Counted from the first letter of the stretch, positions 19,541 to 42,751 are shown. The stretch: DNA of 50,884 nucleotides from Acidipila sp. (GCA_010365215.1 JAAFGT010000020.1:1-50884); one strand, 5' to 3'. The notes: generated by a model not told the origin, from the letters alone. Program-made: numbers and translations.

Positions 19541-19542
19541 CT

Positions 19543-23612: not shown

Positions 23613-23933
23613 GTGTGCCTAGCAATACCGGGGAAAATCGTCGAATTGGATTCGCAGAACGCTCTTCACGCGGTGGTTGACGTGGTTGGTGTGCGCCGCA
23701 AAGTGGATCTAGGGCTCTTGCAAGACGAGCCGCCCGTTCCCGGGGACTGGGTGCTCATCCACGTCGGTTTTGCCATGAGCAAAATCAGCGAAGCCGATGC
23801 CGTTGATCAAATGCGGACGCTCACCATGCTGGGCGAGGCCGACGCCGCCATGGAAGAGGTGCGCGGCTACGGTTTGGAAAATGACGGGCAGGACTCTTGG
23901 GGTCAGGGACCACAGTCAGGAAACCGGTCATGA
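23613..23933 (+). CDS. hypC: Hydrogenase maturation chaperone HypC
   Basis: 106 residues from a GTG codon, giving the obligatory MCLAIPGKIVE N-terminus, whose Cys2 binds the Fe(CN)2CO unit and HypD/large subunit. It is longer than usual (about 75-95 residues) because of an acidic tail after LTMLGEADAAMEEV. It shuttles the assembled iron centre from HypD to HhyL. Its stop overlaps the hypD start (ATGA). Confidence 0.95.
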   Translation: MCLAIPGKIVELDSQNALHAVVDVVGVRRKVDLGLLQDEPPVPGDWVLIHVGFAMSKISEADAVDQMRTLTMLGEADAAMEEVRGYGLENDGQDSWGQGPQSGNRS

Positions 23934-25057: not shown

Positions 25058-25071
25058 GCGAGTCACAATCC

Positions 25072-26112: not shown

Positions 26113-26120
26113 GAATCCTC

Positions 26121-27299
26121 ATGGCCACAGCCGTGGAACTGAGCACACAAATCGAACAGCGGCTGCTTGCGCGCAATCAGGTGTTCGAATCGTTTTTTGC
26201 GGTGGAGGCTCCGCGATTGGCGGAGGCCTCCCGCGAAATGTCTGAGAGGTTTCTACGCGGCGGCCGGTTGCTGGCGTTTGGGCGCGGCCCCTGCGCCACT
26301 GACGCACAACACGTCTCCGTGGAATTCGTGCATCCCGTAATCGTGGGAAAACGCGCGCTCCCCGCGCTTGATCTCTCTTGCGCCTTCGAGCCCTGGCTCC
26401 ATACGCTCGTGCAAGCCAACGACATGGTCATGGGTTTCGGTCCGCCCGAGGGCGACCCCGAAGTGTGGGCTGCGCTGGACGCGGCAAATCAACGCCAGGC
26501 GATGACGTTCGCTTTGCCCGGTCTGGAAGGCTCCTATTTCTGCAATGCCCCGGCCCTCGATTCTTTCCTCCACCAGGAGCTGATCGAAATTCTCTATCAC
26601 ACGCTGTGGGAGACGGTGCACGTCTTTTTCGAGCATCGCGAATTGGGCCATGACGTGGGCGAAGCTGGATTTTTATATCCATTTCTCGGCAAAAAGAAGC
26701 AGCAAACGTTTGATGTAGTTGCCGAAGTCGCTGCTTCCATTCGTATGAAAGTACATGACGATGCGCTGCTGCGCGCGCAGGTAGCGGCAGAACAGGCCGA
26801 ACAGATCGGCAGCGCCGCCATAGCGATTCGCCAGCGAATCGAACGAGGCGGGAAGCTGATCATTTTTGGCAACGGTGGATCGGCTACCGACGCAAATGAC
26901 TGGGCCATGGATTGCTTTATGCCGCCCGCGGGATACCAACCTATTCCAGCGGTGTCCCTCTCCATGGAGCCGGCCAACATTTCCGCGATCGCCAATGACG
27001 TCGGCACCGAGCTGATTTTTCAGCGGCAGTTGATCGCGCAAGCCCGGCCCGAGGATGTGGCCGTCGCGATTTCCACCAGCGGCGGCTCGAAAAATATCGT
27101 GATGGCGCTGGAGGAAGCGAGGAAGAGAAACCTGCTGACGGTGGCATTGCTCGGTTACGACGGAGGCGAAGTCGTACGGCGGCGCCTGGCGGATTTTCCT
27201 CTAATCGTGCCGTGCGACTACATCCCGCGAATTCAGGAAGTGCAAGCGTCGATCTATCACCTTATTCGCGAGGCCTTGGAGGGGTTGGGAAATGCCTAG
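26121..27299 (+). CDS. Tandem double-SIS-domain protein (GmhA/DiaA-like)
   Basis: 392 residues from the ATG at 26121, 8 bp after hypE. It contains two sugar-isomerase (SIS) folds in tandem. The first has RLLAFGRGPCATDAQHVSVE (about residues 48-70). The second has KLIIFGNGGSATDANDWAMD and AISTSGGSKNIVMALEEA (about 250-330). The second copy looks closer to GmhA/DiaA phosphoheptose-isomerase-like proteins; the first is diverged. SIS domains bind phosphosugars. Why one should sit inside a hyp operon is unknown. I recall similar genes near other group 1h loci, but this cannot be checked here. Confidence 0.82.
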   Translation: MATAVELSTQIEQRLLARNQVFESFFAVEAPRLAEASREMSERFLRGGRLLAFGRGPCATDAQHVSVEFVHPVIVGKRALPALDLSCAFEPWLHTLVQANDMVMGFGPPEGDPEVWAALDAANQRQAMTFALPGLEGSYFCNAPALDSFLHQELIEILYHTLWETVHVFFEHRELGHDVGEAGFLYPFLGKKKQQTFDVVAEVAASIRMKVHDDALLRAQVAAEQAEQIGSAAIAIRQRIERGGKLIIFGNGGSATDANDWAMDCFMPPAGYQPIPAVSLSMEPANISAIANDVGTELIFQRQLIAQARPEDVAVAISTSGGSKNIVMALEEARKRNLLTVALLGYDGGEVVRRRLADFPLIVPCDYIPRIQEVQASIYHLIREALEGLGNA

Positions 27300-27528
27300 C
27301 CTGGAGCTTTACGGAAGCGCCGGATGTCCGTACACGCGAGAGATGCGCGAATGGCTCGAGTGGAAAGGGAGCAGCTTCCAGGAATACGACGTCGACGCCG
27401 ACACGGACGCTCGCGAGCGCATGCGACTGCTGGCGCAAGTCCCATATACCGTTCCGTTGCTGGTGCAGGACGGTAAAGTCATTCAAGTAGGGTGGCAGGG
27501 CAGGGGTTGCGTGGTGAACGCAAAATAG
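27292..27528 (+). CDS. Glutaredoxin-like protein (UXX-star type)
   Basis: 78 residues, overlapping the SIS gene by 8 bp. The thioredoxin-fold redox motif is GCPYT at residues 11-15, with TVPLLVQDGKVIQVGWQGRGC near the end, the pattern of the UXX-star glutaredoxin subfamily, where some members carry selenocysteine; here it is cysteine. It could reduce disulfides or hand iron-sulfur clusters to maturation partners. Confidence 0.85.
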   Translation: MPSLELYGSAGCPYTREMREWLEWKGSSFQEYDVDADTDARERMRLLAQVPYTVPLLVQDGKVIQVGWQGRGCVVNAK

Positions 27529-27533
27529 TTTCC

Positions 27534-29843
27534 ATGACCAAGGCTTATTCCATCAGGGTGCGCGGTGTGGTGCAGGGTGTCGGCTTCCGCCCGTTCGTCT
27601 ACCGGCTGGCGTGTGCGAATGGTTTGAACGGCTGGGTTTTGAACGCGGAAGAAGGAGTGGAGATTCATCTGGAAGGGGCCGAGGGCTCGTTCCGTTCATT
27701 TGTCGAAGAGATGAAATCTCAAGCACCGCAGGCCGCCGCCATCGACGACGTGCGCGTCGAACCTGCGGAAGCAGCCGGATTTTCGGAGTTCAAGATCCGG
27801 GAAAGCGCTTCCAAGCGGCAGCCCACCGTTCAAATTTCGCCCGACTTGCCGGTTTGTGAGAACTGCGTGCAAGAACTTCTCTGCCCGGAGGATCGTCGTT
27901 ATCACTACCCGTATATCAATTGCACAAACTGCGGTCCTCGTTACAGCGTGGTTCGAAGCCTTCCTTACGACCGTCCGAATACAACCATGGCCGGTTGGGC
28001 ATTAGATGACCACTGCGATGCTGAGTACCGCGAACCTGCAAATCGGCGTTTTCACGCGCAGCCCGTGGCGTGTCCCGCGTGTGGGCCACACTATTTCTTT
28101 CAAACGGGTGATGAAGTAGTGCACGGCGATGAGGAGGCAATTCGAGAGGCAGTGCATTATCTTGATTCCGGCAAGATTGTGGCGGTGAAAGGACTTGGCG
28201 GCTACCATCTGGTCTGCGACGCAAAGAATGAGCAAGCTGTTTGCGCGATGCGAACCAGAAAATTTCGCAAGGAAAAGCCGTTTGCCCTGATGGCCAAAAA
28301 TGTTGGGGTGGCGCGCAGGCTGGTCGACCTAAGTCCCCAGGCGGAAGCATTGATGAACTCGGTCGCCCGGCCGGTGGTTCTTGCGCGTGCGAAGATCGAG
28401 TTGCCTGGAGTCGCGCCCGAAAATGACGAGCTGGGAGTGATGTTACCTTCCACGCCGTTGCATTTCCTATTGTTTGCCGCCGGCGCGCCCGAAATCCTGG
28501 TCATGACCAGCGCAAATCGTTCCAGCGAGCCGATCGCTTACCGGGACGACGAGGCGACGCGGAGGCTTTCCGGTATCGCAGACGCATTCCTGATCGGCGA
28601 GCGACCCATCGCCCGCCGAGTCGATGATTCGGTCGTCCGCGTAGGCGCTTTTGGTCCGGCGATTCTTCGCCGAGCCCGCGGATACGCCCCCGGCGCGGTT
28701 GCGGTAATTCCAACTGGTCGTCCCATCCTGGCTGTGGGTGCGGACCTCAAGAACTCGATCACTCTCGTCGTGGATGGCCAAGCCTTGGTCAGCCAGCACA
28801 TCGGAGACCTGGATCATTATGAATCTTTTTGCGCCTTTCGGGAAACCATCCAAGATCTGCTTTCGATGTATAAAATTGATGCGAATCAATTGTTGCTGGT
28901 GCACGACGCGCACCCTCAATATGTTTCGACGATGCATGCTCTGGAGCTTCCTGCATCGGAAAAGTGCGCCGTGCAACATCATCGCGCTCATATCGCTTCC
29001 GTACTCGCCGAGCGCGGTGCGTGGGACAAGCGCGTCATTGGAGTCAGTTTCGACGGCACGGGTTATGGGGACGACGGTTTAATTTGGGGCGGCGAGATTT
29101 TTGCCGGCAGCGTGCGTTCAGGCTTCGAGCGCATTGCGCATGTGCGCGAGGCCGTTCTACCCGGCGGCGATGCAGCCGCTTCCTATCCAATCCAGGCGGC
29201 GGCGGGTTTCCTGGCGCAGCTCGATGGTGCGCCCGACTTTATGGCTCCCCTATTTTCGTTTCCTTCACGCTATCTGGAGGCTTTGCAACTTATACGCGCG
29301 AAAGTTCGCTGTTTCGGCACGACCTCTATGGGACGTCTCTTCGACACGGCGGCAGCACTACTGGGTTTTACGCGCGAAGTGACTTTTGAAGGCCAGGCAG
29401 CGATGTGGCTCGAACGCCTTGCCAGCCAGGCGTCCAACACCGATGCATATCCATTCCCGTTGGTGAGCTTCGAGTTGGATTTTCGTCCGCTGCTAGCTGG
29501 TATGATCCGCGACAGGGTCCGCGCCCGCGCTGCAAATGAGGTTGCACGCGCGTTCCAGCGCGGAATTGCCGTGGGTCTCCGCGACGCCGTCGCAATTTTA
29601 AGCCGCTCGCAAGAAGCCGATACGGTGGTGTTGTCCGGCGGCGTTTTTCAGAACCAACTGCTTTTGCATGACCTCAAAAGTCTCTGTGAACTTGACGGTT
29701 TGCAGGTTTGGACAAATCACGTCGTTCCGTCTAACGATGGCGGCATCAGCCTCGGGCAGGCGGCGCTGGCCGCCTTGGCAAACTCCGAATCAGCCGCTAG
29801 AGTTGAAGAAATTGATGCTGCGTGGATGACCCAAGTGACGTGA
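27534..29843 (+). CDS. hypF: Carbamoyltransferase HypF
   Basis: 769 residues from the ATG at 27534. Domains in order: acylphosphatase (VRGVVQGVGFRPFVYRLA, 1-90); two C4 zinc fingers (CENC...CTNC and CDAE...CPAC, ~105-190); YrdC-like nucleotide-binding domain (~200-390); and a Kae1/TobZ-like carbamoyltransferase domain with the metal-binding HHRAH at ~485. HypF makes carbamoyl-AMP from carbamoyl phosphate and loads the HypE C-terminal cysteine. Full length, no defects seen. A 71-bp gap follows. Confidence 0.96.
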   Translation: MTKAYSIRVRGVVQGVGFRPFVYRLACANGLNGWVLNAEEGVEIHLEGAEGSFRSFVEEMKSQAPQAAAIDDVRVEPAEAAGFSEFKIRESASKRQPTVQISPDLPVCENCVQELLCPEDRRYHYPYINCTNCGPRYSVVRSLPYDRPNTTMAGWALDDHCDAEYREPANRRFHAQPVACPACGPHYFFQTGDEVVHGDEEAIREAVHYLDSGKIVAVKGLGGYHLVCDAKNEQAVCAMRTRKFRKEKPFALMAKNVGVARRLVDLSPQAEALMNSVARPVVLARAKIELPGVAPENDELGVMLPSTPLHFLLFAAGAPEILVMTSANRSSEPIAYRDDEATRRLSGIADAFLIGERPIARRVDDSVVRVGAFGPAILRRARGYAPGAVAVIPTGRPILAVGADLKNSITLVVDGQALVSQHIGDLDHYESFCAFRETIQDLLSMYKIDANQLLLVHDAHPQYVSTMHALELPASEKCAVQHHRAHIASVLAERGAWDKRVIGVSFDGTGYGDDGLIWGGEIFAGSVRSGFERIAHVREAVLPGGDAAASYPIQAAAGFLAQLDGAPDFMAPLFSFPSRYLEALQLIRAKVRCFGTTSMGRLFDTAAALLGFTREVTFEGQAAMWLERLASQASNTDAYPFPLVSFELDFRPLLAGMIRDRVRARAANEVARAFQRGIAVGLRDAVAILSRSQEADTVVLSGGVFQNQLLLHDLKSLCELDGLQVWTNHVVPSNDGGISLGQAALAALANSESAARVEEIDAAWMTQVT

Positions 29844-29914
29844 CAGGGTTTTGGAACTAAGCCGTAGAGCTGGCGCTGTTACGTTGAGTAAGGATTAGGG
29901 GCGAGGCGCGCGAA

Positions 29915-30262
29915 ATGCATGAACTCTCCATCGCGATGAGCATCGTGGAAATGGCTCAAGAGGAAGCGGAGCGCCGCGGCGGTGTGCAGGTGCAGATTGT
30001 GCACCTGCGGCTCGGGCGATTGTCCGGAGTCGTCAAGGAAGCCCTGCTTTCTTCTTACGAGATGGCTTGCGCATCGACGCTTCTGGAAGGTTCGCAACTG
30101 ATGATTGAAGAAGTTCCCGTCGAAGTCTTTTGTCCAAGATGCGAAGCCCCGCGGCTGGTTCGCTCGATCCAGTGGTTTCGCTGCCCGGAATGTGACACTC
30201 CAACTTCAACGGTCATTCGCGGGAAAGAGTTGGAAGTCGTCGCGCTGGAGATCAAGGAATGA
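29915..30262 (+). CDS. hypA: Nickel metallochaperone HypA
   Basis: 115 residues. The N-terminal Met-His-Glu (MHELSIAMSIVEMA) is the nickel site; the zinc finger CPRC...CPEC is at ~72-93. HypA receives nickel and delivers it with HypB to the large subunit. Its stop overlaps the hypB start by the ATGA sequence. Confidence 0.96.
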   Translation: MHELSIAMSIVEMAQEEAERRGGVQVQIVHLRLGRLSGVVKEALLSSYEMACASTLLEGSQLMIEEVPVEVFCPRCEAPRLVRSIQWFRCPECDTPTSTVIRGKELEVVALEIKE

Positions 30263-30942
30263 ACGCCGAACCTCGTCTTGTGGAAGTCCGGAAGAACGTC
30301 CTGAAGCAAAACGACGTAACGGCCCGCGCGCTGCGCGGGCGTTTCCGCGATGCGGGTGTGCTGGCCGTCAGTTTGGTTTCCAGCCCGGGTTCGGGCAAGA
30401 CGGCTTTTCTGGAGAAAACGCTTACGCTTCTTTACTCGCGCTACCGGGTCGCGGCGTTGGTGGGTGACCTGGCCACAGAAAATGATGCGGCGCGTCTCGC
30501 TCGCAGCCAGGTTCCGGTGAAGCAGATCGTCACCGGGACGGTCTGTCATCTCGATGCGGCCATGGTGCAGCACGCTCTGGAGGGCTGGGATTTAAACACT
30601 CTCGATATTTTGTTCATTGAAAATGTCGGAAACCTGGTGTGCCCTTCGTCTTATGATCTCGGCGAAGACTTGCGTCTCGTGCTGCTCTCGGTAACGGAGG
30701 GTGAAGACAAACCTCTCAAATATCCGACAATTTTCAACAGCGCCGACGTTGCCGTAATAACGAAAATAGATCTCGCTGCCGCCGTGGAATTTGACGAGGC
30801 CGCCGCGAAACGCAATATTCAGGCGGTGCGGCCGGGCATGGAAGTTTTTAAAACATCAGCCAAGACCGGGGAAGGAATGGCCGAGTATCTGGAGTTCATC
30901 GAACGCAGGCGCGTACATTCGCGCGCCGCTGCCGCGGTTTAA
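30259..30942 (+). CDS. hypB: Nickel-insertion GTPase HypB
   Basis: 227 residues, SIMIBI-class G protein. P-loop VSSPGSGKTAFLEK, switch region VGDLATENDAARL, the metal-linked CHLDAAMV (Cys-His of the interface nickel site) and ENVGNLVCPSSYDLGE. G4 appears as ITKID. There is no His-rich N-terminal nickel-storage stretch; the His-rich segment of this locus lies in the transporter instead. Confidence 0.95.
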   Translation: MNAEPRLVEVRKNVLKQNDVTARALRGRFRDAGVLAVSLVSSPGSGKTAFLEKTLTLLYSRYRVAALVGDLATENDAARLARSQVPVKQIVTGTVCHLDAAMVQHALEGWDLNTLDILFIENVGNLVCPSSYDLGEDLRLVLLSVTEGEDKPLKYPTIFNSADVAVITKIDLAAAVEFDEAAAKRNIQAVRPGMEVFKTSAKTGEGMAEYLEFIERRRVHSRAAAAV

Positions 30943-30946
30943 AGAA

Positions 30947-31765
30947 ATGATCACCCTGTTTTCCATCATCGCGCTTGGGTTTTTTCTCGGCATGCGGCAC
31001 GCCACCGATCCCGACCACGTCATCGCGGTGACCACGATCGTGAGCCGGCAGCGAAGCGTCCGCCATGCCGCTTTGATCGGGGCCTTGTGGGGCCTGGGCC
31101 ATACCATTACGATTCTCGTCGTCGGATCAGCCATCATCCTGTTCGGACTGGTGATCCCGCCCAGACTTGGCCTCACCATGGAGTTGTCGGTTGGCCTGAT
31201 GTTGATTCTTCTGGGAATTGCGAATCTGTCAGGACTGATACGCTGGATCACGGAAACAGTCACGCCCATGCATTCGGGTCACTCCGTTCGATGGGGACAG
31301 CACTCGCATCCTCACGGGCACGGCGATTTCGTTCACAGTCATCCGCACGGCCACAGCCCGGAGAATCACGGCCATCTTGAAAGTGCGACACCGGTAGGCT
31401 GGATGGATCGTACGTTTGGCCGGCTGGGTCTCTATCAGATCGTTCGGCCATTAGCAGTCGGCATCGTTCACGGCCTGGCGGGATCGGCAGCCGTCGCCTT
31501 GTTGGTGCTGACCACCATCCGCGTTCCCTTGGCGGCTGTCCTCTATCTTTTGGTATTCGGCATTGGCACGATCGCGGGCATGATGCTGATCACCGCGGCG
31601 ATTGCCATCCCGTTTACGTTGTCGGAAAACCGCTTTTCCCGCCTCAACCGCGGGCTAGGACTGGCCTCAGGTCTGGCAAGCCTGGCCTTCGGCCTTTTCA
31701 TTGTCTATGAAATGGGATTCGTCAACCGGCTCTTTACCGATAATCCCACCTGGATGCCACACTGA
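30947..31765 (+). CDS. High-affinity nickel/cobalt transporter with His-rich loop
   Basis: 272 residues, starting four bases after hypB. The first helix carries GMRHATDPDHVIAVTTI, the H-x4-DH signature of NiCoT/NicO-type transporters. A central cytoplasmic or periplasmic loop (about 105-145) contains many histidines (QHSHPHGHGDFVHSHPHGHS). About six to seven TM helices. As last gene of the hydrogenase operon it most likely imports nickel for HhyL. Uptake rather than efflux is inferred from context only. Confidence 0.85.
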   Translation: MITLFSIIALGFFLGMRHATDPDHVIAVTTIVSRQRSVRHAALIGALWGLGHTITILVVGSAIILFGLVIPPRLGLTMELSVGLMLILLGIANLSGLIRWITETVTPMHSGHSVRWGQHSHPHGHGDFVHSHPHGHSPENHGHLESATPVGWMDRTFGRLGLYQIVRPLAVGIVHGLAGSAAVALLVLTTIRVPLAAVLYLLVFGIGTIAGMMLITAAIAIPFTLSENRFSRLNRGLGLASGLASLAFGLFIVYEMGFVNRLFTDNPTWMPH

Positions 31766-32500: not shown

Positions 32501-33862
32501 CTATCTGAAGGAGAGGGCTCCTTGTCTGACCTCGTCGATTGCTTCCGTGGACATATCGCGCATTCCAAACGCGACACCGACTTTTTTCAGGAAGGCGGTG
32601 GGCGGCTCGCCACCGGCGAAGATCCAGACATAATCGTTGGGAATCTCCCTCAGTTCACCGCCCGCTTCGAGGACCGCGGTATTTGACTTGAACTCCACGG
32701 GGGTGGAGTTGAAGATCACCTGGACTTTTTTGGTGCGCATGCAATTTGCTATACCCTGAGAATTCCGTTCTTTCAGGCGGCTGAAAGCCTCTTTGCGATA
32801 GGAGAGCGTGACCTGGTTGCCCACCTGGTGGGCGAGGCCCATGGCCGCCTCGACCGCGCTGTCGCCACCCCCGACTACAAGAATTTTTTTGTTCACATAG
32901 TGGTCGGCCTCGATCAGGCGGTACATGACTTTTGGCAGTTGCTCCCCCTTGACACCGAGTTTGCGCGGGCTGCCACTCTTGCCAATCGCCAGCAAAACGG
33001 CGCGCGCAAGATATTGACTCTGGGAGGTCGCCACGGTGAATATGCCATCTTCCCCCTTCCGGATGTCCTGCACCTTTTCGCCCTTGCGAAAATTGAAATC
33101 CACTCGTTGCAGGACTCCATTCCAGAAGGACAGGAGTTCTTCCTTGGAGATTTCCAGCTTCTTAAACTTTCCATACATCGGGAATTCCACCGGGCTAGTG
33201 AGCACTAATTTCTGACGCGGATACTTCGCTACGGTGCCCCCGAGCTCGCCTTCGTCTACAGTAATGTAATTGAGCTTTTTCTCGATGGCCCGCAGCGAGG
33301 CACTGATTCCCGCGGGACCAGCTCCGACGATCACTACGTCGAAAACACCCGGTGCCGGCCGGGCACCTCGGTGGGCATGAAGTCTACCCGCCACGGTATC
33401 GATGCAGTCGCGCCCCTGATTGATGGCATTCTTGATTAACGCCAGCCCGCCGAGTTCCCCGGCGACAAACAGGTTTTGGATGCTGGTCTCATACTCCGCC
33501 GTCAGGCCGGGCATGTCGGCGCTCATACTGGGGCTGGCCATCACCATGGTGATGGCGCCCACGGGACAGGCATCGGCGCAGAGGCTGTGGCCAATGCACT
33601 TGTATCCGTTGACGATGGCTGCCTTGCCGCCCACCATTGCCAGGACGTCACCCTCTGGACAGACCGTGGTACAAGCCGCGCAGCCGATGCAATAGTTGAC
33701 GTCAATTTGCGGATGCTGGGATTGCGGGCCGTCAGAGCGCAATTTCCCTTTTTCCGCAGCCGCGCTTGCCCGGACTTCCTGCTCCTTCAAATGTTGGAGG
33801 TGGCTGCGGACGAAGAAGAGCGTAATCACCACAGCGACGATGCCGGCAATAAATGTTCCCAT
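32501..33862 (-). CDS. Membrane-anchored FAD/NAD(P)-binding oxidoreductase with ferredoxin domain
   Basis: 453 residues. An N-terminal TM helix (GTFIAGIVAVVITLFFV) anchors it. A two-cluster ferredoxin domain follows: CIGCAACTTVCP near residue 58 and CIGHSLCADACP near 88; the second motif has His in place of one Cys. The rest is a thioredoxin-reductase-like flavoprotein: FAD motif VIVGAGPAGISASL, NAD(P) motif VVGGGDSAVEAAMGLA, and the C-terminal WIFAGGEPPT. No CxxC disulfide of true thioredoxin reductase is visible. It should shuttle electrons between NAD(P)H, FAD and Fe-S clusters at the inner membrane, and is the last gene of the cytochrome operon. Confidence 0.88.
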   Translation of the reverse strand: MGTFIAGIVAVVITLFFVRSHLQHLKEQEVRASAAAEKGKLRSDGPQSQHPQIDVNYCIGCAACTTVCPEGDVLAMVGGKAAIVNGYKCIGHSLCADACPVGAITMVMASPSMSADMPGLTAEYETSIQNLFVAGELGGLALIKNAINQGRDCIDTVAGRLHAHRGARPAPGVFDVVIVGAGPAGISASLRAIEKKLNYITVDEGELGGTVAKYPRQKLVLTSPVEFPMYGKFKKLEISKEELLSFWNGVLQRVDFNFRKGEKVQDIRKGEDGIFTVATSQSQYLARAVLLAIGKSGSPRKLGVKGEQLPKVMYRLIEADHYVNKKILVVGGGDSAVEAAMGLAHQVGNQVTLSYRKEAFSRLKERNSQGIANCMRTKKVQVIFNSTPVEFKSNTAVLEAGGELREIPNDYVWIFAGGEPPTAFLKKVGVAFGMRDMSTEAIDEVRQGALSFR

Positions 33863-33885
33863 GATCGGCCCTTTTTCCCGGCTCT

Positions 33886-34377
33886 CTAAAGCGGTGCGCT
33901 GGCCGGTTTCGCAGTTGGGGGATGGCCGGGCGGCAGAGGGGCTGTGCCAGGCGCGGGTGCCTGGTTCTTGAACCTGTCCATGGACGGGAACTCGGGCGAT
34001 ACGTCTGAGGCCGGCGCTGCGCCCGGCGGGGGAGGTAGGGCCGATGCCTTATCCATCGGGGGATGCGAAATATCACCGCCCGCTGGCCGGCTGTGTCCTA
34101 CCACCCAGGCACCTTGAACGCGCTGGAGGGTATAACTGACCTGCATGCCGCCACCGCCCTGCTTGACCCGGAATTCCACAAGAGCATCCGCGTCATCGCC
34201 CTTGATGGTCACCTGCTGAACGTTCATCTCCATGGCGGCCATGTTCAGGCCTCCGCGGTCGCTGAGATGTTTTTCGATCGCTCCGCGAATAGCTTCCTTG
34301 TCGCTGGCGGCTTTATGGCAGCCGCCTGAAACGCTCAGACTGATGACCAGCGCAACCATGCAAACGACTTTTCTCAC
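33886..34377 (-). CDS. Small lipoprotein with proline-rich tail
   Basis: 163 residues from a GTG with a strong GGAGGA site. The signal peptide ends in a lipobox-like SVSGGC (Cys20), so it is probably a lipoprotein. A compact ~85-residue domain (DKEAIRGAIEKHLSD...VQQVTIKGDDADALVEFRV...GAWVVG) resembles DUF4878-type NTF2-like folds. The last 55 residues are Pro/Ala-rich and likely extended. It lies between the b-type cytochrome and the flavoprotein; its role in the system is unknown. Confidence 0.78.
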   Translation of the reverse strand: MRKVVCMVALVISLSVSGGCHKAASDKEAIRGAIEKHLSDRGGLNMAAMEMNVQQVTIKGDDADALVEFRVKQGGGGMQVSYTLQRVQGAWVVGHSRPAGGDISHPPMDKASALPPPPGAAPASDVSPEFPSMDRFKNQAPAPGTAPLPPGHPPTAKPASAPL

Positions 34378-34414
34378 GAGAAGGTTCCTCCTCCGTTACC
34401 CCTGCAGCCCAAAC

Positions 34415-35344
34415 TTAGAAATATCCCAGCAGCAGCGCCACCAGGATATGAATCCCCGCCAGGATGGCGAAAGAATAGCTGAACGGGCGATGGATGATGT
34501 GCCAGAGCCGGAACAGCTCTTGTGTCTTGGAAAGCAATAAAATCTTCTTCGAGAGGGAAGCCTGCTTGCGCACGGAGGAGATGACGTCTTCCAGATCCTG
34601 GCTGCCCAGCGAGTCGCGGTGCGATGCCACGGCCTTTCGCCGCAGACGGCGGATCTGGAAGGGAAAATTGAGGTCGAAGCGCACCGCCATCCAAAGCACC
34701 GAGAGCGCGGACATCGATTGCAGCGCAGCGGGGCCCGGCAAGCGAAACAGCGGCGCAAGATCAGCAGGCGACAGAATTTTCTGTGAATCCATCTGGCGCG
34801 CCATCGTTTCGCTCTGGCCGCGAAGCTCGTGCAGAGATATTTCCGCGGCTCCCAGGCTGTGGGGTATCAGCGAGTAGATGTATCGGCCCACGAAGCCGCT
34901 GAGCACTACCGCCATCATGATCCAGTAGGCGATTCCAGCGATTCCCCGGAACTTGAACGCCGCGTGAAACGTGATCACCACCGGAGCAAAAATTCCAAGC
35001 AGGACGTGGAAATTCAGCCAGCGTCGCGTGTTGCCCTTACGCGAAAGCCATCCCCATCGCTTGCGAATGGCGTAGAGGTAAATAAGCAGAAAAAGTACGA
35101 CACCGAAAATACCCAGGCGCAGCCCGATCGTGCCGCTGGGTTTCAGCAGGGCGTGTTTCGGGGAAAGGGCGCGTTGCGCGTGGTCCAGCGGGTAGTAGTC
35201 CAGGCCGTAAACAGCAAGCGCCAGGGTGCCGGCGATGGAAGCGTACATTCCCAGCCAGAGCACGAATCGATGGCGCTTCTCGACCGAGGTCGCCCGCACC
35301 TCAGGGCGCGATTCCGGGACACGATTTGCGACCAGCACGCTCAT
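34415..35344 (-). CDS. Five-TM b-type cytochrome-like membrane protein
   Basis: 309 residues from the ATG at 35344, overlapping the previous stop (ATGA). About five hydrophobic helices. Histidines fit haem b ligation: helix 3 has NFHVLLGIFAPVVITFHAAF (two His one helix-span apart) and the final helix has WHIIHRP and GIHILVALL. This resembles cytochrome b561/ferric-reductase-like folds. A charged loop (~165-265) separates the last helix. In this operon it is the natural link between the membrane or the flavoprotein and the periplasmic multihaem cytochromes (inference). Confidence 0.78.
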   Translation of the reverse strand: MSVLVANRVPESRPEVRATSVEKRHRFVLWLGMYASIAGTLALAVYGLDYYPLDHAQRALSPKHALLKPSGTIGLRLGIFGVVLFLLIYLYAIRKRWGWLSRKGNTRRWLNFHVLLGIFAPVVITFHAAFKFRGIAGIAYWIMMAVVLSGFVGRYIYSLIPHSLGAAEISLHELRGQSETMARQMDSQKILSPADLAPLFRLPGPAALQSMSALSVLWMAVRFDLNFPFQIRRLRRKAVASHRDSLGSQDLEDVISSVRKQASLSKKILLLSKTQELFRLWHIIHRPFSYSFAILAGIHILVALLLGYF

Positions 35345-36180
35345 GGCTTCTTGGCCACCTCTTCGTGAGCGTCGGTGGAGAAGCGTTTGTAATCCGTGAA
35401 GCGATGAAGATTGCGCCAGTGCTGCCGCGTGGTTTCCGCCTCGATCTCTGCCGTTGTGGGCAGCCAGTACTCTTCCTTGGAGGTGGAGAATCTTATGGGC
35501 GCGTAGCGCACGTCGCAATGCAGCGTGCGCAGCCCCACGTCCTCCAGGGACGATTCCAGGCCGGATTCAATCCGCGAGATGGTGGCGGAGTCGGGATCGA
35601 TCCAGGCGGTTCCTTCCAGGTCCAGCGGATATTCCCGGCCGCGCAACTGCAACGCCGAAGGCGATCGCGTTCCCTTCACATGCCGGAAGTGTATCCGCTT
35701 CAGCGACGTTCCGTTGACCACCTCATCGGGCAAGGACTCGAACTCGAAGCTATTCTGGTAGTAGGGGTGAAAAACCAGCAGCATGGTCGCGAAGCCGTTG
35801 GTTACCAGCAGGGGAACGTTCTCGCCTTTTGCGGACTCCCGTTTGGCCTGGCGCGATTCCGTGACGCCGATTCCGTCGCTGTGCAACTCCAGCATGACCA
35901 GGTAATCGAACAGCGCCTCACGCTGGTAGGTTACCTTGCCGCTCTTTCCAAGTTTTAACTGGATGACGGTCTCGTTGCAGGACACGTCCGCGAATTGCTG
36001 CCAGAATCGCTCGACAGACTTCTCGCTGCGATGCAGAAGTTGTTCAAGGGGCGCGACGGAATCGGCGGGTGACGGGCGGGCTCCGGCTGAAAGAAGCACC
36101 GCGCAAATAAATGCCCAGCGCGCCCACCGCGCCAACGGATCAGCCGATTTGGAACTCTGCCGGGTCATGCTTATTGCCAT
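35341..36180 (-). CDS. Exported protein of unknown function in the cytochrome operon
   Basis: 279 residues from the ATG at 36180, two bases after the barrel gene; a longer frame upstream would overlap the barrel gene heavily. The N-terminus has a TM or signal segment (WARWAFICAVLLSAGARPSPAD). The mature part is beta-rich with SCNETVIQLKL, LLVFHPYYQNSFEFESL and GTAWIDPDSATISRIESGLE; the last is reminiscent of LolA/RseB-like lipid-binding folds. One Cys pair (C in SCNETV and LHCDV). Possibly a periplasmic partner of the barrel. Confidence 0.72.
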   Translation of the reverse strand: MAISMTRQSSKSADPLARWARWAFICAVLLSAGARPSPADSVAPLEQLLHRSEKSVERFWQQFADVSCNETVIQLKLGKSGKVTYQREALFDYLVMLELHSDGIGVTESRQAKRESAKGENVPLLVTNGFATMLLVFHPYYQNSFEFESLPDEVVNGTSLKRIHFRHVKGTRSPSALQLRGREYPLDLEGTAWIDPDSATISRIESGLESSLEDVGLRTLHCDVRYAPIRFSTSKEEYWLPTTAEIEAETTRQHWRNLHRFTDYKRFSTDAHEEVAKKP

Positions 36181-36182
36181 CG

Positions 36183-37904
36183 CTAAAACCTGTAACCCAT
36201 GCTGAGAAAGATCTGGTTGTAGACCTGAACGCCGCCGCCATAATACGTAAATCCGGCGCCCACGTAATAGTGGATCCCAATCTGCCAGTCCAGATTGGAG
36301 TTGATCCAACGCGCGCGGTTTTGCCGCGTGAGAGAAGATAGAAAGTCTTGCTGCCCGCCTTGAATTTCCCAGCGCATGTTTTCGCCGAACTGCCGGCTCA
36401 AGGAAAGCGCCTGGTAGGTTCCGCGGCCGAAGGAGCTGTCGAATTTCGAGTAGCGCAAATCGGCGCGGATCCCGGTGCGCCAGATCCGGCCCATGGTCAC
36501 GCCGTACAACTGGTTCCAGGAAGGACGCACATCGCCGCTCCGCGAGCTGCGGCCCAGGCTGGAGTAAAGGCTTAACTGATAGGGCAGCTCGACGCGCACC
36601 GAGCCGCTGAATCCTTCAAACAGGAATTTTTCCACCAGGCCGGTTCCGATCAGTCGCGGATCAAACGTAGGGGTATTCCGAAAATAATTGTGACTGACGT
36701 CAAAAGAGAACCGGGAATTCGGCTGAATGCGCACGGTCAGAAAGCTCTGGGTGATCGCGGCGCTGCGCTTGCTGGCGGTATTGCCACCAGCAGTTCCTCC
36801 GCCGGCTGCAGAGCCCGGCGCGGCAACGTCAGGTGGCACCATGTCGGCCTGCATCGAATGGTAAATAGAAAAATACCGCTTGTAGAAAACGCCGGTTTCG
36901 GCAAAGGCGAACTCACGCTCGCGCTTCCAATGAAGGCGCGTCACTGCCAACCCCACGGTGCTGCTGAAGCGTGTGGCGTCGAAGCTGCCGGACTCGTAAT
37001 TGAGGAACGAGCCGGCGATCTGGCGGCCGGGGCTGTAATTCCATGCCGACGGGTCCGGTGTTGATCCGCCAAAGATTCCTGCCGTAGTGGTCTTGCTCAA
37101 CCGACGTGCGAAGTAGCCGCCGTCGATAGTGCTCAGAGTCGGCGCCCAGGGCAAAAAGAGGCGCCCGATTCCCATCACCCATTTCGATTGCGGGTTGGAG
37201 TAGATGAATCCAATCTGGTAGGTGCGATTGATCAGGTCGGTCAGCGTCTGCTGCTGCGGTCCGCGGCCCTGCGAGCTGAAGCGGCCGCGGTAATAACCGC
37301 TAAGGTTCCAATAGGTGCCGCCGATGCGCGTCACATCGGCGCGTACGACAAAGCCCACCTGGTACGAGGCGGGAATCGAAGCGTTCATGCCGCGAATGGT
37401 GGTGTAGTCCATGCCGATGCGCCCACGGGCACGATTGATTTCCGGCGAGGGCGCGCGCGGGACGTATTCACGCTGCTTTTCATCGAGAGGGTCACCCTCG
37501 GTAAAGGTCACTACCTGCGGATATCGCCGCATCCCCGCGGTTTCCTGTTGCGCCTGCAGCGTCTGCACGTCTTGCGCTGACAAATAGGCGATATCACCGA
37601 CCTGAATCTGGTCGCTGAGCGAGGTCACGCTTCGAATCTCACAAACTGCGGATGCTGTTCCTACGGCGGTCACTTGTACTTCACCGAGCGTGTGAAAACC
37701 GTCCGGCTCGCCGTGCTGGGGGCGCTTTACCGTGAGCGTCATGCCTTTGTTCAATCCGGCGTTCTGTCCACCGTCGAGATAGACCACGCCTTCGGTTCCA
37801 TACTTGATGCGGAACTCTTTTCGTACGTCGACCTGCTGAGCGCCGGGCACGGGCGCCGGGAGCAGCGCCCAGAAGATCAGCAAGAAATGAACTCGCCATC
37901 GCAT
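36183..37904 (-). CDS. Outer-membrane beta-barrel protein of the multihaem cytochrome operon
   Basis: 573 residues. Signal peptide MRWRVHFLLIFWALLPAPVPGA. Residues ~25-115 form a small beta domain (KYGTEGVVYLDGGQNAGLNKGMTLTV-like pattern) resembling the C-terminal domain of FlgT, a periplasmic fold. From ~165 the sequence alternates polar and aromatic residues in strand-loop fashion and ends SMGYRF, the C-terminal aromatic typical of outer-membrane barrels. It follows the 31-haem cytochrome by three bases. Barrels next to multihaem cytochromes form porin-cytochrome conduits in metal-reducing bacteria; this one is not recognisably MtrB but could play the same part. Confidence 0.8.
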   Translation of the reverse strand: MRWRVHFLLIFWALLPAPVPGAQQVDVRKEFRIKYGTEGVVYLDGGQNAGLNKGMTLTVKRPQHGEPDGFHTLGEVQVTAVGTASAVCEIRSVTSLSDQIQVGDIAYLSAQDVQTLQAQQETAGMRRYPQVVTFTEGDPLDEKQREYVPRAPSPEINRARGRIGMDYTTIRGMNASIPASYQVGFVVRADVTRIGGTYWNLSGYYRGRFSSQGRGPQQQTLTDLINRTYQIGFIYSNPQSKWVMGIGRLFLPWAPTLSTIDGGYFARRLSKTTTAGIFGGSTPDPSAWNYSPGRQIAGSFLNYESGSFDATRFSSTVGLAVTRLHWKREREFAFAETGVFYKRYFSIYHSMQADMVPPDVAAPGSAAGGGTAGGNTASKRSAAITQSFLTVRIQPNSRFSFDVSHNYFRNTPTFDPRLIGTGLVEKFLFEGFSGSVRVELPYQLSLYSSLGRSSRSGDVRPSWNQLYGVTMGRIWRTGIRADLRYSKFDSSFGRGTYQALSLSRQFGENMRWEIQGGQQDFLSSLTRQNRARWINSNLDWQIGIHYYVGAGFTYYGGGVQVYNQIFLSMGYRF

Positions 37905-37907
37905 GGG

Positions 37908-40346
37908 TTAGTTTTGTGTTCCTCGCGGGTGGCAGGCATAACAATTCACGCTGTTGTAGACGTACCCGCTCACGCCCTGATGGTGATTGTCCGTGTCGGT
38001 TTTGTTGTGGGTGTGGCAGTTGGTGCAGGCGAACACTTTGTAGTTGCTGGGATTGGTGTGGCAATCGCTGCACACGGAGATTCCGCGATGCGGGATCGGG
38101 AACCATGTGTGATTGAAGTTCGCGCCCAGCCAGTTCGTGGTGGTGTGGCAGGTTTGACAGGTGGTCGGAAAGCCTGCCGCAGCGTGGTTTGGATTCGTGG
38201 TTCCCTGGTACTCCGGCGTGTGGCAGGAATAGCAGTCCGTGGGAGTACCGACAAATCTGCCGCCCACGTGGCACTGCGCACAGGTCACCGACGGATCGGC
38301 GTGCTTGCCGGTCAAGGGAAACGGGGTCTTGTTATGGTCAAAAGCCGCGTTGAGCCAGGTGACCGTGGTATGGCAAGACAGGCAATCCTGGGGATAGCCG
38401 AGGGACAGGTGATTCGGCACACCCGGGATGGTCGCGGTCTTGTTGTAATCCTTGGCATGGCAGCCATAGCAGTTTGTCGGCAACGTTCCAGCGTAATTGT
38501 CTATGTGGCAGGTAGCGCAGGGCACGCTGGTAGCGTGGAAGCCGGTCAGCGGGAACGAAGTCTTGTTGTGGTCGAAACTCGCGTTCAGCCAGTTGGTGGT
38601 GGAATGGCATTGCGTGCAATCTTGCGGGAAACGTGCGGTGACGTGATTGGGCACGCCCGGAATATTCGCGGTGTTGTTGTAGTCCTTGGTATGGCAGCCG
38701 TAACAGTTGGTGGGCAGCGTACCTTTGTAATTGTCGATGTGGCAAGTGGCGCAGGGCACGCTGGTGGCGTGGAACCCGGTGAGCGGAAAGGTTGTGGTGT
38801 TGTGATTGAATGTCGCGCCCAGCCAGTTCGTGGTGGTGTGGCAACCCGCGCAGTCCTGCGGGAAATTCGCCGTAACGTGATTGGGCGCGCCCGGGATATT
38901 CGCGGTGTTGTTGAAGTCCTTGGCGTGGCAACCGTAGCAGCTCGTGGGCAATGTTCCCGTGTAGTTGTCGACGTGGCAGGTAGCGCAGGCTACGCTGGTG
39001 GCGTGGAAGCCGGTCAACGGGAACGTTGTTTTGTTGTGGTCAAAAGTCGCGTTCAGCCAGGTGGCGGTGGTATGGCATTGCAGGCAATCCTGCGGATAAT
39101 TCTGGGTGATGTGGTTCGGCGCGCCCGGGATATTCGCGGTGTTGTTGTAGTCCTTGGTATGGCAGCCGTAGCAGTTGGTGGGCAGCGTACCTTTGTAATT
39201 GTCGATGTGGCAAGTGGCGCAGGGCACGCTGCTGGCGTGGAATCCTGTGAGTGGAAACGTTGTTTTGTTGTGATCAAAGGTGGCGTTCAGCCAGTTGGTC
39301 GTGCTGTGGCATAACGTGCAGTCTTGCGGCATGTTCGCGGTGATGTGGTTCGGCGCACCCGGAATTGTCGCGGTGTTGTTGTAGTCCTTGACATGGCAAC
39401 CGTAGCAGTTGGTGGGCAAGGTTCCGGCGTAATTATCGGTGTGGCAAGTGGCGCAGGGCGTAGTCGCGTGTTTGCCGGTAAGAGGGAAGTTCGCGACTTG
39501 GTTGTGATCGAACTTGGCGCTCTGCCAGTTCAAGAGAGAATGGCAATCGGCGCAATTTTGTGAGAACCCGGCTTTCACGTGATTCGGGTTAGTGGCTCCC
39601 TGATAGTCTTTTGCGTGGCATCCATAGCAATTTGCCGGCGTCCCGGCAAAGCGCCCGCCCACGTGGCAGGCCAGGCAATCCAGCTTGGCGTGGCTACCGG
39701 CCAGGGCGAATCCAGTGAGGGAATGATCGAACTTGGCACCCAGCCAGGAATCCGCGCTGTGGCAGGTCTCGCAGGTGGTTGCGAAGCCCAGCTTCCGGTG
39801 ATCCAGGGACTGCGTGCTGGTATTCTGAAAATCCGTCAGGTGGCAGGAGATGCAGTCCGTGCGGAGTCCCGTGAACTGACCCACTGCCGCGCCGGTATGG
39901 CAGGCCGCGCACTCGACCGATGCATGCGCCCCGACCAGCGGAAAGCGGTTGTCGTGATCTTTAATCGCGCTCACTGAGACATTCCAGCCCTTCACGGTAT
40001 GGCACTGCTCGCAGCGGGCGCCGAACTGGCCGCGGTGCAGGTCCGCATGGCAGTCCGCGCACTTCGTGCCTACGTTGCTGAACACCAAATTAATGTGACA
40101 GCCGCGGCAGTCCACCTTTTCGTGCAGGCCGCGCAAGGGATAGGAAGTCCTGTTGTGGCTGAATTCAGGCTGGCTGCGAATCGGTTTCCAACTGGTGAGG
40201 GTATGGCAACTGTCGCAGGTCTCGGAAAGTTGCCCGTGTGGATTGCGTGTGGTGGTTTTTCGAGCGGACTGGCCCGCACAGGGCGCCGAGGCGCCTGCCA
40301 GTAGACAAATAAAAACCAGGACCTTGGCAACCAACCGTGGTGACAA
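37908..40346 (-). CDS. Giant multihaem c-type cytochrome with 31 CxxCH motifs
   Basis: 812 residues from a TTG at 40346; signal peptide region VLVFICLLAGASAPCAG. By eye I count 31 CxxCH haem-binding motifs, one per 26 residues, from CDSCH near residue 44 to CYACH near the C-terminus. The middle (about 303-690) consists of five tandem copies of a 78-residue, three-haem unit: DNYxGTLPTNCYGCH, then PQDCxxCH, then FPLTGFHxxSVxCATCH. Extra His residues (FDHNK, GFHA, PNH) fit the second axial haem ligand. It is a periplasmic or surface electron-wire candidate; whether it polymerises is unknown. Confidence 0.92.
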   Translation of the reverse strand: MSPRLVAKVLVFICLLAGASAPCAGQSARKTTTRNPHGQLSETCDSCHTLTSWKPIRSQPEFSHNRTSYPLRGLHEKVDCRGCHINLVFSNVGTKCADCHADLHRGQFGARCEQCHTVKGWNVSVSAIKDHDNRFPLVGAHASVECAACHTGAAVGQFTGLRTDCISCHLTDFQNTSTQSLDHRKLGFATTCETCHSADSWLGAKFDHSLTGFALAGSHAKLDCLACHVGGRFAGTPANCYGCHAKDYQGATNPNHVKAGFSQNCADCHSLLNWQSAKFDHNQVANFPLTGKHATTPCATCHTDNYAGTLPTNCYGCHVKDYNNTATIPGAPNHITANMPQDCTLCHSTTNWLNATFDHNKTTFPLTGFHASSVPCATCHIDNYKGTLPTNCYGCHTKDYNNTANIPGAPNHITQNYPQDCLQCHTTATWLNATFDHNKTTFPLTGFHATSVACATCHVDNYTGTLPTSCYGCHAKDFNNTANIPGAPNHVTANFPQDCAGCHTTTNWLGATFNHNTTTFPLTGFHATSVPCATCHIDNYKGTLPTNCYGCHTKDYNNTANIPGVPNHVTARFPQDCTQCHSTTNWLNASFDHNKTSFPLTGFHATSVPCATCHIDNYAGTLPTNCYGCHAKDYNKTATIPGVPNHLSLGYPQDCLSCHTTVTWLNAAFDHNKTPFPLTGKHADPSVTCAQCHVGGRFVGTPTDCYSCHTPEYQGTTNPNHAAAGFPTTCQTCHTTTNWLGANFNHTWFPIPHRGISVCSDCHTNPSNYKVFACTNCHTHNKTDTDNHHQGVSGYVYNSVNCYACHPRGTQN
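38268..39437 (-). repeat. Five 234-bp tandem repeats coding three-haem units
   Basis: On the minus strand the copies begin at about 39437, 39203, 38969, 38735 and 38501; the last copy has one extra codon. Copies 2 and 4 are almost the same at the DNA level around the GTLPTNCYGCH segment, while copies 1, 3 and 5 differ in the residue after DNY (A/K/T). This suggests expansion by duplication of a two-unit block or gene conversion. Confidence 0.85.
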
Positions 40347-40765
40347 ATGCCCCGCCGCAAGACCTTAAACTTACTCTCCGGCTGGGCGCGGGATTAACTC
40401 AAGCCTATTCCAACCACCCCTGAGCGGCTACTGGCCTGAAGGCCAAATCCTGCCGGGTAGGTACCTGCCCGCTCGCACTGTCCCTACCCACCAGACACAA
40501 GAATCTTAATGTTGCTACTGCACTTTACCGTCCATACATTGCAAAAAATAATTGCGTGTTAACAGTCGAGATTAAACGCATCAGTTATGGCCGATTCGCG
40601 GTACGCCACATTCGCACTTTCGGCAACAGGCTGCTCCAGCGACCGCGTCCAGACGGTAGTTTTTTCTCTGTATCTGTACTTCTTACAATGGGTAATCCCG
40701 GTGCGAGATTCAGTTTGATTTGGAGGACATGTTCCGCAATGAAACTGCAGCGAAGATCTTGATTT
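40347..40765. other. Spacer between the two multihaem cytochrome genes
   Basis: 419 bp with no supported gene. It probably holds the promoter of the 31-haem operon and the 3' end of the 23-haem gene. It contains two dyads on either side of a short gap: TGGCC-TGAA-GGCCA (40432-40445) and the near-palindrome GGGTAGGTACCTGCCC (40455-40470). Confidence 0.5.
40432..40470. promoter_or_regulatory. Pair of dyad elements upstream of the 31-haem cytochrome
   Basis: TGGCC-TGAA-GGCCA is a perfect 5-bp hairpin. GGGTAGGTACCTGCCC is a 16-bp palindrome with one mismatch. They lie 10 bp apart and about 86-125 bp before the TTG start at 40346, suitable for an operator or for an RNA hairpin ending upstream transcription; neither has a T-run. 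Confidence 0.35.
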
Positions 40766-42751
40766 TTAGAGTGCCGAAGCGTGGCAGGCGGAGCACTCGC
40801 GGGGCGTCGGTTTATAGAACAGGATTTGCGTTCCTTCGATGTTGCGCAACAGCTTATGGCACTGCGCGCAAGGAACCTGCTGGTGAGCTCCACGCAGCGA
40901 GAACGTCGCGTCTTTCTCGTGGTCAAAGAGCGAAGGGCGCCATTTCAGGTTGTTGTGACACTTCGCGCAGTCGGAAATTCCTTTGCCCTTTGAGAACTGC
41001 CCGCCGTGGGCATCTTCATGGCAGGCTTTGCACTCGTGCGGCGCCGCCTTGAAATTTGCTTCGCGCAGGGTGGTCCCCAGATTGGCGGGGAAATGGCATC
41101 CCGAGCAGGCCACAGCACGGTGCGCTCCGAGAAGTTGGAAGGAAGTTGTCGAGTGATCGAAACCATTGAGCTCTTTCCATGTGCTCACTGTATGACAGGA
41201 CTCGCAACCCAGCGTGGAGCCGTCCGCCCGGCGCTTGGCCATGCGCTCGGCGAATTGCCCTCTGTGCGGGTCGGCGTGACATGCTGTACAAGTACGGTCG
41301 TCGAAGCGGTACTTCACCGAGCCTGGCGGAAAGATCGCGGAATCTGGTTTGTGGCATTCCATGCAGGGCGTCGCTGCGTGTGCCCCGCGCAGAGGGAAGC
41401 GCGTCTTCTCATGATCGACCAACGTAATTCGCACGGAATGAAAAGTTTGCACCGTGTGGCAGTCTTCGCAGCGATTTTTGTGGGGAGGTCCAGCGAATTG
41501 TCCCTGGTGCGCGTCCACGTGGCATGAGGCGCAACTGGTTTGCGCAATCTTGAAGACCGTATCCACTCCCTTCGGCAGATGGCATTTCGCGCAAGCCACA
41601 GCAGCGTGTTTGCCCGTAAGCGCATACTTCGTGGTCGCATGCATCGCCACGGTGAATAGCGACGGCTTCCATCCGTTTACATCATGGCACTCCGCGCACT
41701 CGCCGCGCTTTGGCCGCTGGCTGAACTGTCCGCGGTGCGGGTCGGGCGTATGGCAGTCGGTGCATTTCGAATGTGCCACAGGCTTCTTGAAGTCGCCCTG
41801 GAAGTGGCACTTTTCGCACGCAACCTCTCCGTGTTTTCCAAGCAGTGGGAAGGTTGTCTTTGTGTGATCAAACTTTCCTGCCATGCGCACCTGTTTCCAG
41901 GCAACGGTGTTATGGCAGCTTTGGCAGGTTGCAGAGAACGCGCCCTTATGGGGATCGGTATGGCAGGAGGTGCAATTGGAGAAGGGAAGTCCCCGGTATT
42001 TTACATACGGCCTGGGTCCCTCCACGCGGACATGGCACTTCTGGCAAGCCACGCGCTCGTGCGCGCCAGTGAGCGCGTATTTCGCTTTGGCGTGATTGAA
42101 CTTCGGCACGCTCTTCCAGTCCGTGAAGGTGTGACAGGAGCTGCAGTCTTTGCTCAACTGGCTGAAGTGCTCGTCGACGTGGCAGCTCAGACAATCCCGT
42201 GCAAGTCCCAGGAACGTCCGGTTCAAATCTTTAACGATGATGTTGTGCCGCTCCGGTGCGGGGATATGCTCCGCCGTGTGGCACTGTTTGCAGCTGAGGC
42301 GCGCATGGCCCCCTTCCAGCGGGTATCCCGTTTTGTTGTGGTCGAAGGCTTGAAAGCTGGGCTCCCAGTGGATCAGGCTGAAATCCAAGCCATTGTGCTC
42401 CGAATGGCAGGAGACACACGCCTTACCGGTGGAATTTTTTACCACCACTTGCGCGTGGAAACCCCGGTTTGTGGCGATGTGCTCGCGAATGTCGGTATGA
42501 CATTCAAGGCACTTCAATTTCGGCGCGCCTACACCGAGTCCGTGGCATTCCGTGCACTGCGTTGGTCCGCCCAGGGAAGCGTGTGCCTTCGATAATGGCC
42601 CAGGCGAAATTTGTGCGGGGCTGGGAATCGAGTAAGACAGATGCAAGACAACGACTACCCATAGCGCGGTTCGAAAGCGAACACTCCAGCGCCCACGCCG
42701 GTGCGCCTCAACGCGCTGGCCATAAGCCCATTGCTCGGGTCGCTGTCGCAT
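40766..42751 (-). CDS. Multihaem c-type cytochrome with 23 CxxCH motifs
   Basis: 661 residues from the ATG at 42751 (a TTG at 42769 would add six). Signal segment ALWVVVVLHLSYSIPSPAQ. By eye I count 23 CxxCH motifs, from CTECH to CSACH next to the C-terminus. It shares with the larger cytochrome the recurring F-DH-x2-T-x-F-x-L-x-G-x-H followed by CxxCH, so the two are related, but its repeats are diverged and irregular (DPHRGQF / DAHQGQF / DPHKGAF between haems). Probably periplasmic. First gene of the electron-transfer cluster, separated from the next by 419 bp. Confidence 0.92.
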   Translation of the reverse strand: MRQRPEQWAYGQRVEAHRRGRWSVRFRTALWVVVVLHLSYSIPSPAQISPGPLSKAHASLGGPTQCTECHGLGVGAPKLKCLECHTDIREHIATNRGFHAQVVVKNSTGKACVSCHSEHNGLDFSLIHWEPSFQAFDHNKTGYPLEGGHARLSCKQCHTAEHIPAPERHNIIVKDLNRTFLGLARDCLSCHVDEHFSQLSKDCSSCHTFTDWKSVPKFNHAKAKYALTGAHERVACQKCHVRVEGPRPYVKYRGLPFSNCTSCHTDPHKGAFSATCQSCHNTVAWKQVRMAGKFDHTKTTFPLLGKHGEVACEKCHFQGDFKKPVAHSKCTDCHTPDPHRGQFSQRPKRGECAECHDVNGWKPSLFTVAMHATTKYALTGKHAAVACAKCHLPKGVDTVFKIAQTSCASCHVDAHQGQFAGPPHKNRCEDCHTVQTFHSVRITLVDHEKTRFPLRGAHAATPCMECHKPDSAIFPPGSVKYRFDDRTCTACHADPHRGQFAERMAKRRADGSTLGCESCHTVSTWKELNGFDHSTTSFQLLGAHRAVACSGCHFPANLGTTLREANFKAAPHECKACHEDAHGGQFSKGKGISDCAKCHNNLKWRPSLFDHEKDATFSLRGAHQQVPCAQCHKLLRNIEGTQILFYKPTPRECSACHASAL

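Follow-up and report, generated by a model that had tools for sequence, protein, structure and literature searches.

What is the function of a run of seven minus-strand genes at positions 32501-42751 of a 50,884-nt stretch of DNA from Acidipila sp. (GCA_010365215.1 JAAFGT010000020.1), whose products include two cytochromes with together more than 50 haem motifs? We analysed the whole of this stretch, which we call the window. A first reading, made from the sequence alone, took the genes for an undescribed electron conduit spanning the cell envelope. We found that the gene set is real and conserved, and that it is a distinct variant, in Acidobacteriota, of the plan of PCC3, a porin-cytochrome system proposed from the genomes of Fe(II) oxidisers. 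Judged by analogy and gene content, it probably forms a PCC3-like porin-cytochrome conduit with NAD(P)H input that exports electrons under oxygen limitation. An envelope-spanning conduit, as in the sequence-only reading, is thus the best interpretation, and the set is not Mtr or Pio, but the system is not undescribed in kind, because it shares the PCC3 plan and the same inner-membrane motifs, which that reading did not recognise. The word still applies to the acidobacterial variant, for which we found no description in the literature; our literature search did not find PCC3 together with Acidobacteria.

The seven genes and their conservation

Reading down from position 42751, the open reading frames (ORFs) encode two multihaem cytochromes (MHC1 and MHC2), a barrel protein, an exported protein, a protein with five transmembrane (TM) segments, a lipoprotein, and a flavoprotein with one N-terminal TM segment, ferredoxin motifs and FAD/NAD(P) domains. 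All seven are present where the sequence-only reading had placed them and with the features it had assigned, including 23 and 31 haem motifs and an outer-membrane barrel. They are tightly spaced, with one larger gap of 419 bp. This gap, between MHC1 and MHC2 (40347-40765), is non-coding and could hold a separate promoter or attenuator. The features, all on the minus strand, are:

40766..42751, minus: MHC1, exported c-type cytochrome with 23 CXXCH motifs (CXXCH count, signal peptide, conserved haem spacing)
37908..40346, minus: MHC2, exported c-type cytochrome with 31 CXXCH motifs (CXXCH count, composition, homologues)
38340..39509, minus: five tandem 78-residue triheme units of MHC2 (67-88% DNA identity among units)
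36183..37904, minus: predicted outer-membrane beta-barrel of about 22 strands, residues 158-573 (AlphaFold2 model, structural matches)
37575..37817, minus: N-terminal domain of the barrel protein, weakly FlgT_C/TsaP-like (Pfam and profile matches)
35341..36180, minus: exported protein with predicted LolA/LolB/RseB fold (structure model)
34415..35344, minus: five-TM b-type cytochrome, PCC3-type inner-membrane protein, FRD-like (TM count, motifs)
34964..35020, minus: WX3HX13H of TM3 (W109, H113, H127), predicted haem b ligands (invariant His)
34448..34504, minus: WX3HX13H of TM5 (W281, H285, H299), predicted haem b ligands (invariant)
34886..34900, minus: SGXXG of TM4, S149-G153 (motif alignment)
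33886..34377, minus: small lipoprotein with Pro-rich tail (signal with SGGC box)
32501..33862, minus: TM-anchored ferredoxin-FAD-NAD(P) oxidoreductase (Pfam, NCBIfam and PDB matches, motif alignment)
33563..33691, minus: two Fe-S motifs of the flavoprotein, the second one Cys short, CX5CX3CP (motif alignment)

The genes are kept together in relatives. Of the outcomes that would have told against the sequence-only reading, neither lack of a barrel nor lack of a conserved set was observed. The b-type cytochrome is present in 53 of 297 genomes across the phylum (with strong matches in about 33), and strong matches occur in about 23 of the 81 genomes of its own order. A scan of public genomes gave 412 relatives, and the best 80 of these, which we examined, are all from Acidobacteriota, mostly metagenome-assembled genomes (MAGs) from soil, peat, permafrost and groundwater; they include the isolate Occallatibacter savannae AB23. 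The order 23-haem cytochrome, variable cytochrome, barrel, LolA-like protein, b-type cytochrome and flavoprotein is retained in nearly all of the approximately 80 Terriglobia loci. More distant acidobacterial families have a different gene order and no LolA-like gene; the multihaem cytochromes and the b-type cytochrome are kept, and a barrel is usually detectable, with models built from Terriglobia sequences only recovering the distant barrels at E-values of 3e-6 to 6e-28. When the genes on either side were clustered, no further conserved neighbour emerged: apart from mixed noise there was only a TPR protein, at 8 loci. A PHROGs search gave nothing.

The set also occurs outside the phylum. In Bacteroidota, plasmid pEMTOL02 of Emticicia oligotrophica DSM 17448 has in a row genes for the b-type cytochrome (E = 8e-82), the flavoprotein (E = 2e-153), cytochromes with 23 and 40 haems, and the barrel (E = 2e-42), adjoining a CcsA/ResB cytochrome c assembly gene. 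Its MHC1 matches with 37% identity over 96% of the length.

A second conduit-like cluster with the same type of b-cytochrome was seen at loci L063-L068 and L181 (Sphingobium plasmid pTomTYG65a); its flavoprotein has cyclic-nucleotide-binding and Fe-S domains, and it also encodes a barrel-like protein, an HbpS-domain protein and two decahaem proteins, one with an FHA domain and one with LVIVD repeats.

One cytochrome of fixed length and one of variable length

The haem motifs of MHC1 and MHC2 are not due to chance, because composition-matched shuffled sequences contain on average only 0.2 CXXCH motifs for MHC1 and 0.35 for MHC2. If every motif is occupied, there would be 27.3 and 25.1 amino acids per haem, respectively. 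Pfam matches of the two proteins are to Cytochrome_C7 and Cytochrom_CIII; a PDB sequence search with MHC2 returned nothing useful, and no match of MHC1 was found among phages. MHC1 is basic (net charge +27), with a signal peptide and a conserved start (AQ-ISPGPLSKAH), and MHC2 is near neutral, rich in Thr, Asn and Ala, with many small residues. No lipobox is recognisable in the window copy of either.

Haem numbers follow a pattern across 47 complete, distinct loci. At 43 of these the MHC1 count is 23, and the haem spacing is almost fixed. MHC2 has from 12 to 61 (10-79 over all homologues), and its haem number has the form 3k+1 at 39 of the 47 loci (binomial p = 3e-12, a descriptive value as the loci are related by kinship), a three-haem step that is due to the 78-residue triheme repeat. 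Even in distant families the MHC1 and MHC2 pairs are 23+10, 23+16, 23+19, 23+22, 23+25, 23+28, 23+31 and 23+40, in which the second number is always 3k+1. One clade has an MHC1 with 24 haems, partnered with 24 or 27. At the upper extreme, locus L146 encodes a complete MHC2 homologue in which CXXCH occurs 79 times, one of the highest numbers for a single protein; and single ORFs with 44-53 motifs, at loci L042, L046 and L047, may be natural MHC1-MHC2 fusions.

A fixed MHC1 beside a variable MHC2 is what would be expected if one protein bridges a gap of constant width and the other reaches outward. By this argument and by analogy to PCC3, we propose that MHC1 is a wire spanning the periplasm, its length fixed because it bridges that compartment, and that MHC2 is an extracellular wire. 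So many haems could instead make up a periplasmic electron store or redox buffer, with no electrons leaving the cell and the barrel being an ordinary porin or assembly platform. High haem numbers fit charge storage, and both cytochromes are exported proteins in whose window copies we recognised no lipobox. The barrel, however, always adjoins the cytochromes and was transferred with them to another phylum, and a second cytochrome reaching 79 haems is hard to place in the periplasm, so that we regard storage as quite improbable.

Proposed electron input at the inner membrane

The b-type cytochrome of the window has 309 residues. Two copies of WX3HX13H are present in 107 of 109 family members, and SGXXG is present in all 109; none of 5000 shuffled sequences had two WX3HX13H motifs. 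Its Pfam match to Ferric_reduct is sub-threshold (E = 0.025), and a PDB sequence search with the b-cytochrome profile gave nothing useful.

The flavoprotein is closest to YpdA and thioredoxin reductases, with a YpdA match of 163 bits against a cut-off of 340. It retains the FAD motif and the NAD(P) motif GGGDSA, but it has GxGPAG where YpdA has GPC, so the active-site Cys is missing, and it lacks a redox dithiol. We rejected a thiol-disulfide reductase role because these redox cysteines are missing. Its second Fe-S motif, to judge from the cysteine pattern, may hold a [3Fe-4S] cluster.

One clade has, in place of the YpdA-like flavoprotein, an FNR-type FAD/NAD/[2Fe-2S] protein that is unrelated to it; four of the five FNR-type proteins that we scanned contain a ferric-reductase NAD domain. 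Counting neighbours within 9 kb of the b-cytochrome gene (with a few genomes counted twice), we found the YpdA-like protein at 96 loci, the FNR-type protein at seven, and both at none. Because two unrelated kinds of NAD(P)H flavoprotein substitute for each other, the sequences suggest that the electrons come from NAD(P)H and not from quinone. In the FNR-type clade (L043, L047, L048, L051 and L056), MHC1 has 24 haems where the cytochromes are separate genes (L043, L048 and L056).

Alternatively, the b-type cytochrome could oxidise menaquinol in an energy-conserving respiratory chain that exports electrons, with the flavoprotein as an accessory. A quinone-active role has been suggested for the PCC3 inner-membrane protein (He et al., PMC5566968), and some of our loci have no flavoprotein nearby. 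This arrangement is unlikely in our view, because one or other NAD(P)H reductase, never both, lies beside the b-type cytochrome at more than 100 loci, and because its haem-ligand spacing is that of the ferric-reductase/NAD(P)H oxidase (NOX) class.

The window suggests another possible electron source, since a group-1h-like [NiFe] hydrogenase and hyp genes lie directly upstream of the conduit genes (12627-31765), and the conduit could pass electrons from atmospheric H2 outward. No hydrogenase gene was present at any other locus that we retrieved. The hydrogenase is therefore not a conserved partner, and we rejected this coupling as having almost no likelihood. The hydrogenase region (12627-22733) is itself unusual in its duplication around a two-component system: two small-subunit genes (12627-13661 and 15899-17017), 71% identical, flank a PAS histidine kinase (13664-14968) and a response regulator (14990-15679), and the large subunit follows at 17037-18833.

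The barrel, the LolA-like protein and the lipoprotein

AlphaFold2 modelled the barrel protein with about 22 strands and a C-terminal Phe (predicted local distance difference test score, pLDDT, 70; predicted template modelling score, pTM, 0.63). The best structural matches of the model are outer-membrane barrels (TonB-dependent receptors and OprD-type porins; Z about 15-17). The backbone radius is estimated at about 20 Å for 22 strands versus about 24 Å for 26. Matches of the N-terminal domain are weak–for example, E = 0.034 to Pfam FlgT_C and, with an alignment profile, E = 8.5e-4 to TsaP.

The exported protein was modelled at pLDDT 82 as a LolA/LolB/RseB fold and is probably a periplasmic assembly factor. 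Its gene is confined to Terriglobia-type loci. Relatives of the lipoprotein are found at only about 10 of 80 loci.

Proposed mechanism and direction of electron flow

In the conduit that we favour, the membrane-anchored flavo-iron-sulfur protein would oxidise NAD(P)H on the cytoplasmic side and pass electrons through its Fe-S clusters to the five-helix b-type cytochrome, whose two b haems would carry them across the inner membrane in the manner of ferric reductases and NAD(P)H oxidases. The 23-haem MHC1 would bridge the periplasm and hand them, through the barrel, to an extracellular MHC2 whose reach would vary in triheme steps. Surplus reducing power could thereby be discharged onto Fe(III), Mn(IV), humics or neighbouring cells when oxygen is short. 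The sequences themselves display the gene set, its conservation, the cofactor motifs and the pattern of haem numbers; from these we infer that the haem sites are occupied, how the subunits make contact and are assembled, where each cytochrome lies, and likewise the direction of flow and the acceptor.

Electron flow from NAD(P)H outward is downhill and the reverse is uphill. Export is the more natural direction because entry from Fe(II) to NAD(P)+ would be steeply uphill. In an inward conduit the donors would be Fe(II) or Mn(II) outside the cell, or partner cells. In favour of this, electron flow along multihaem chains can in principle run either way, and the PCC3 of Fe(II) oxidisers has been modelled as a route for electron entry. 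The NAD(P)H-type input, present in two unrelated forms, would nevertheless make entry strongly uphill, and the cultured carriers that we found are Occallatibacter and Emticicia, neither of which is known as an Fe(II) oxidiser. In Sideroxydans ES-1, moreover, both PCC3 clusters are down-regulated on Fe(II) (PMC8788666). We give inward flow a small chance.

Several observations weigh against an outward NAD(P)H-driven conduit. About 10 loci have no flavoprotein nearby, some of them owing to a contig end. Confidence in the barrel model is moderate, and the modelled barrel is narrower than the 26-strand MtrB or the reported PCC3 porins. The missing lipobox of MHC2 leaves its retention at the surface unexplained, and the placement of MHC1 inside and MHC2 outside rests on the contrast between fixed and variable lengths together with the PCC3 analogy.

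Tentatively, and with considerable doubt, we suggest a wider interpretation. The set would be a trans-envelope wire, NOX-like and driven by NAD(P)H, with a 23-haem protein of fixed size gauging the periplasm and a separate outer wire that lengthens or shortens by triheme repeat duplication. Such a wire would be spread widely among soil Acidobacteriota and passed between phyla as a cassette, and it might explain the Fe(III) reduction of these bacteria.

Significance

Fe(III) reduction has been documented in isolates of Acidobacteriota, for example in Acidicapsa (PMC8790237) and, according to a citation in PMC6018796, in Paludibaculum fermentans. Decahaem genes of Acidobacteriota were surveyed in earlier literature, and for most multihaem cytochromes of acidobacterial MAGs the substrates have been called unknown (PMC8100337). 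The variant described here comes with a concrete gene set, a haem-number rule that can be measured, an electron source, NAD(P)H, that favours export, and two carriers in culture (O. savannae AB23 and E. oligotrophica DSM 17448). If our interpretation is true, a phylum among the most abundant in soil has a redox outlet that is missed by current surveys using Mtr, Omc and Cyc2 marker genes.

Comparison with known systems

MtrCAB, MtoAB and PioAB resemble the acidobacterial set in concept only, as an inner-membrane donor, a periplasmic multihaem cytochrome, an outer-membrane barrel and an outer multihaem cytochrome. They have 10 and 10 haems, compared to 23 and 31 here, and the input here is not CymA-like. 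The MtrB/PioB family (PF11854) has no match in the Acidipila genome and none for the barrel protein, in agreement with the sequence-only reading; we rejected Mtr/Pio membership on these grounds, and neither cytochrome here matches the decahaem periplasmic one of those systems. Three relatives of this genome (G297, G301 and G316) carry MtrB/PioB-family barrels scoring over the cut-off.

The OmbB-OmaB-OmcB and CbcL/ImcH systems of Geobacter share the porin-cytochrome architecture and are set apart, by their descriptions, by haem numbers of 8 and 12 and by quinol-oxidising multihaem inner-membrane cytochromes. Geobacter triheme c7 'nanowire' cytochromes (TIGR04257) also have triheme repeat modules, but the match is 26 bits against a cut-off of 40, and the triheme units here lie inside a 31-haem conduit protein. 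Ferric reductases and NOX enzymes share the HX13H pairs for two haems b and the proposed NAD(P)H flavoprotein input; here the flavoprotein is separate and, at most loci, of a different fold, the YpdA/thioredoxin reductase type, and electrons would go to multihaem cytochromes instead of O2 or chelated Fe.

The closest system is PCC3, which we compared from published descriptions of its plan and motifs. It was proposed from the genomes of Fe(II) oxidisers, as a system linked to quinone and lacking a flavoprotein, and was listed from Alpha-, Beta- and Gammaproteobacteria (He et al. 2017, PMC5566968); in Gallionellaceae its periplasmic cytochrome has 21, 24 or 27 haems and its extracellular one 10-35 (PMC10734462); its function is untested to date (PMC12442390). 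In both systems the inner-membrane protein is about 300 residues long and has five TM segments, SGXXG on TM4 and WX3HX13H on TM3 and TM5; both also have an outer-membrane barrel gene in the cluster, and one near-constant cytochrome (21, 24 or 27 haems in PCC3) beside a variable, repeat-rich one (10-85 in PCC3). Our 27.3 and 25.1 amino acids per haem are within the PCC3 range of 22-39, with about 26 in both systems. Unlike PCC3, the acidobacterial variant includes a LolA-like protein, an NAD(P)H-linked flavo-iron-sulfur protein and, at some loci, a lipoprotein, and combines a 23-haem MHC1 with an MHC2 that varies in steps of three. Its barrel has about 22 strands versus up to 42 predicted TM regions in PCC3, the latter being an upper value, and no lower bound, given by He et al. 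for most porins. PCC3 has been reported from Proteobacteria, including Gallionellaceae, and the variant is found in Acidobacteriota. What is known, then, is the PCC3 plan; what is new, against the papers that we found, is the acidobacterial host, the NAD(P)H flavoprotein, the fixed number of 23 haems and the length variation in triheme steps.

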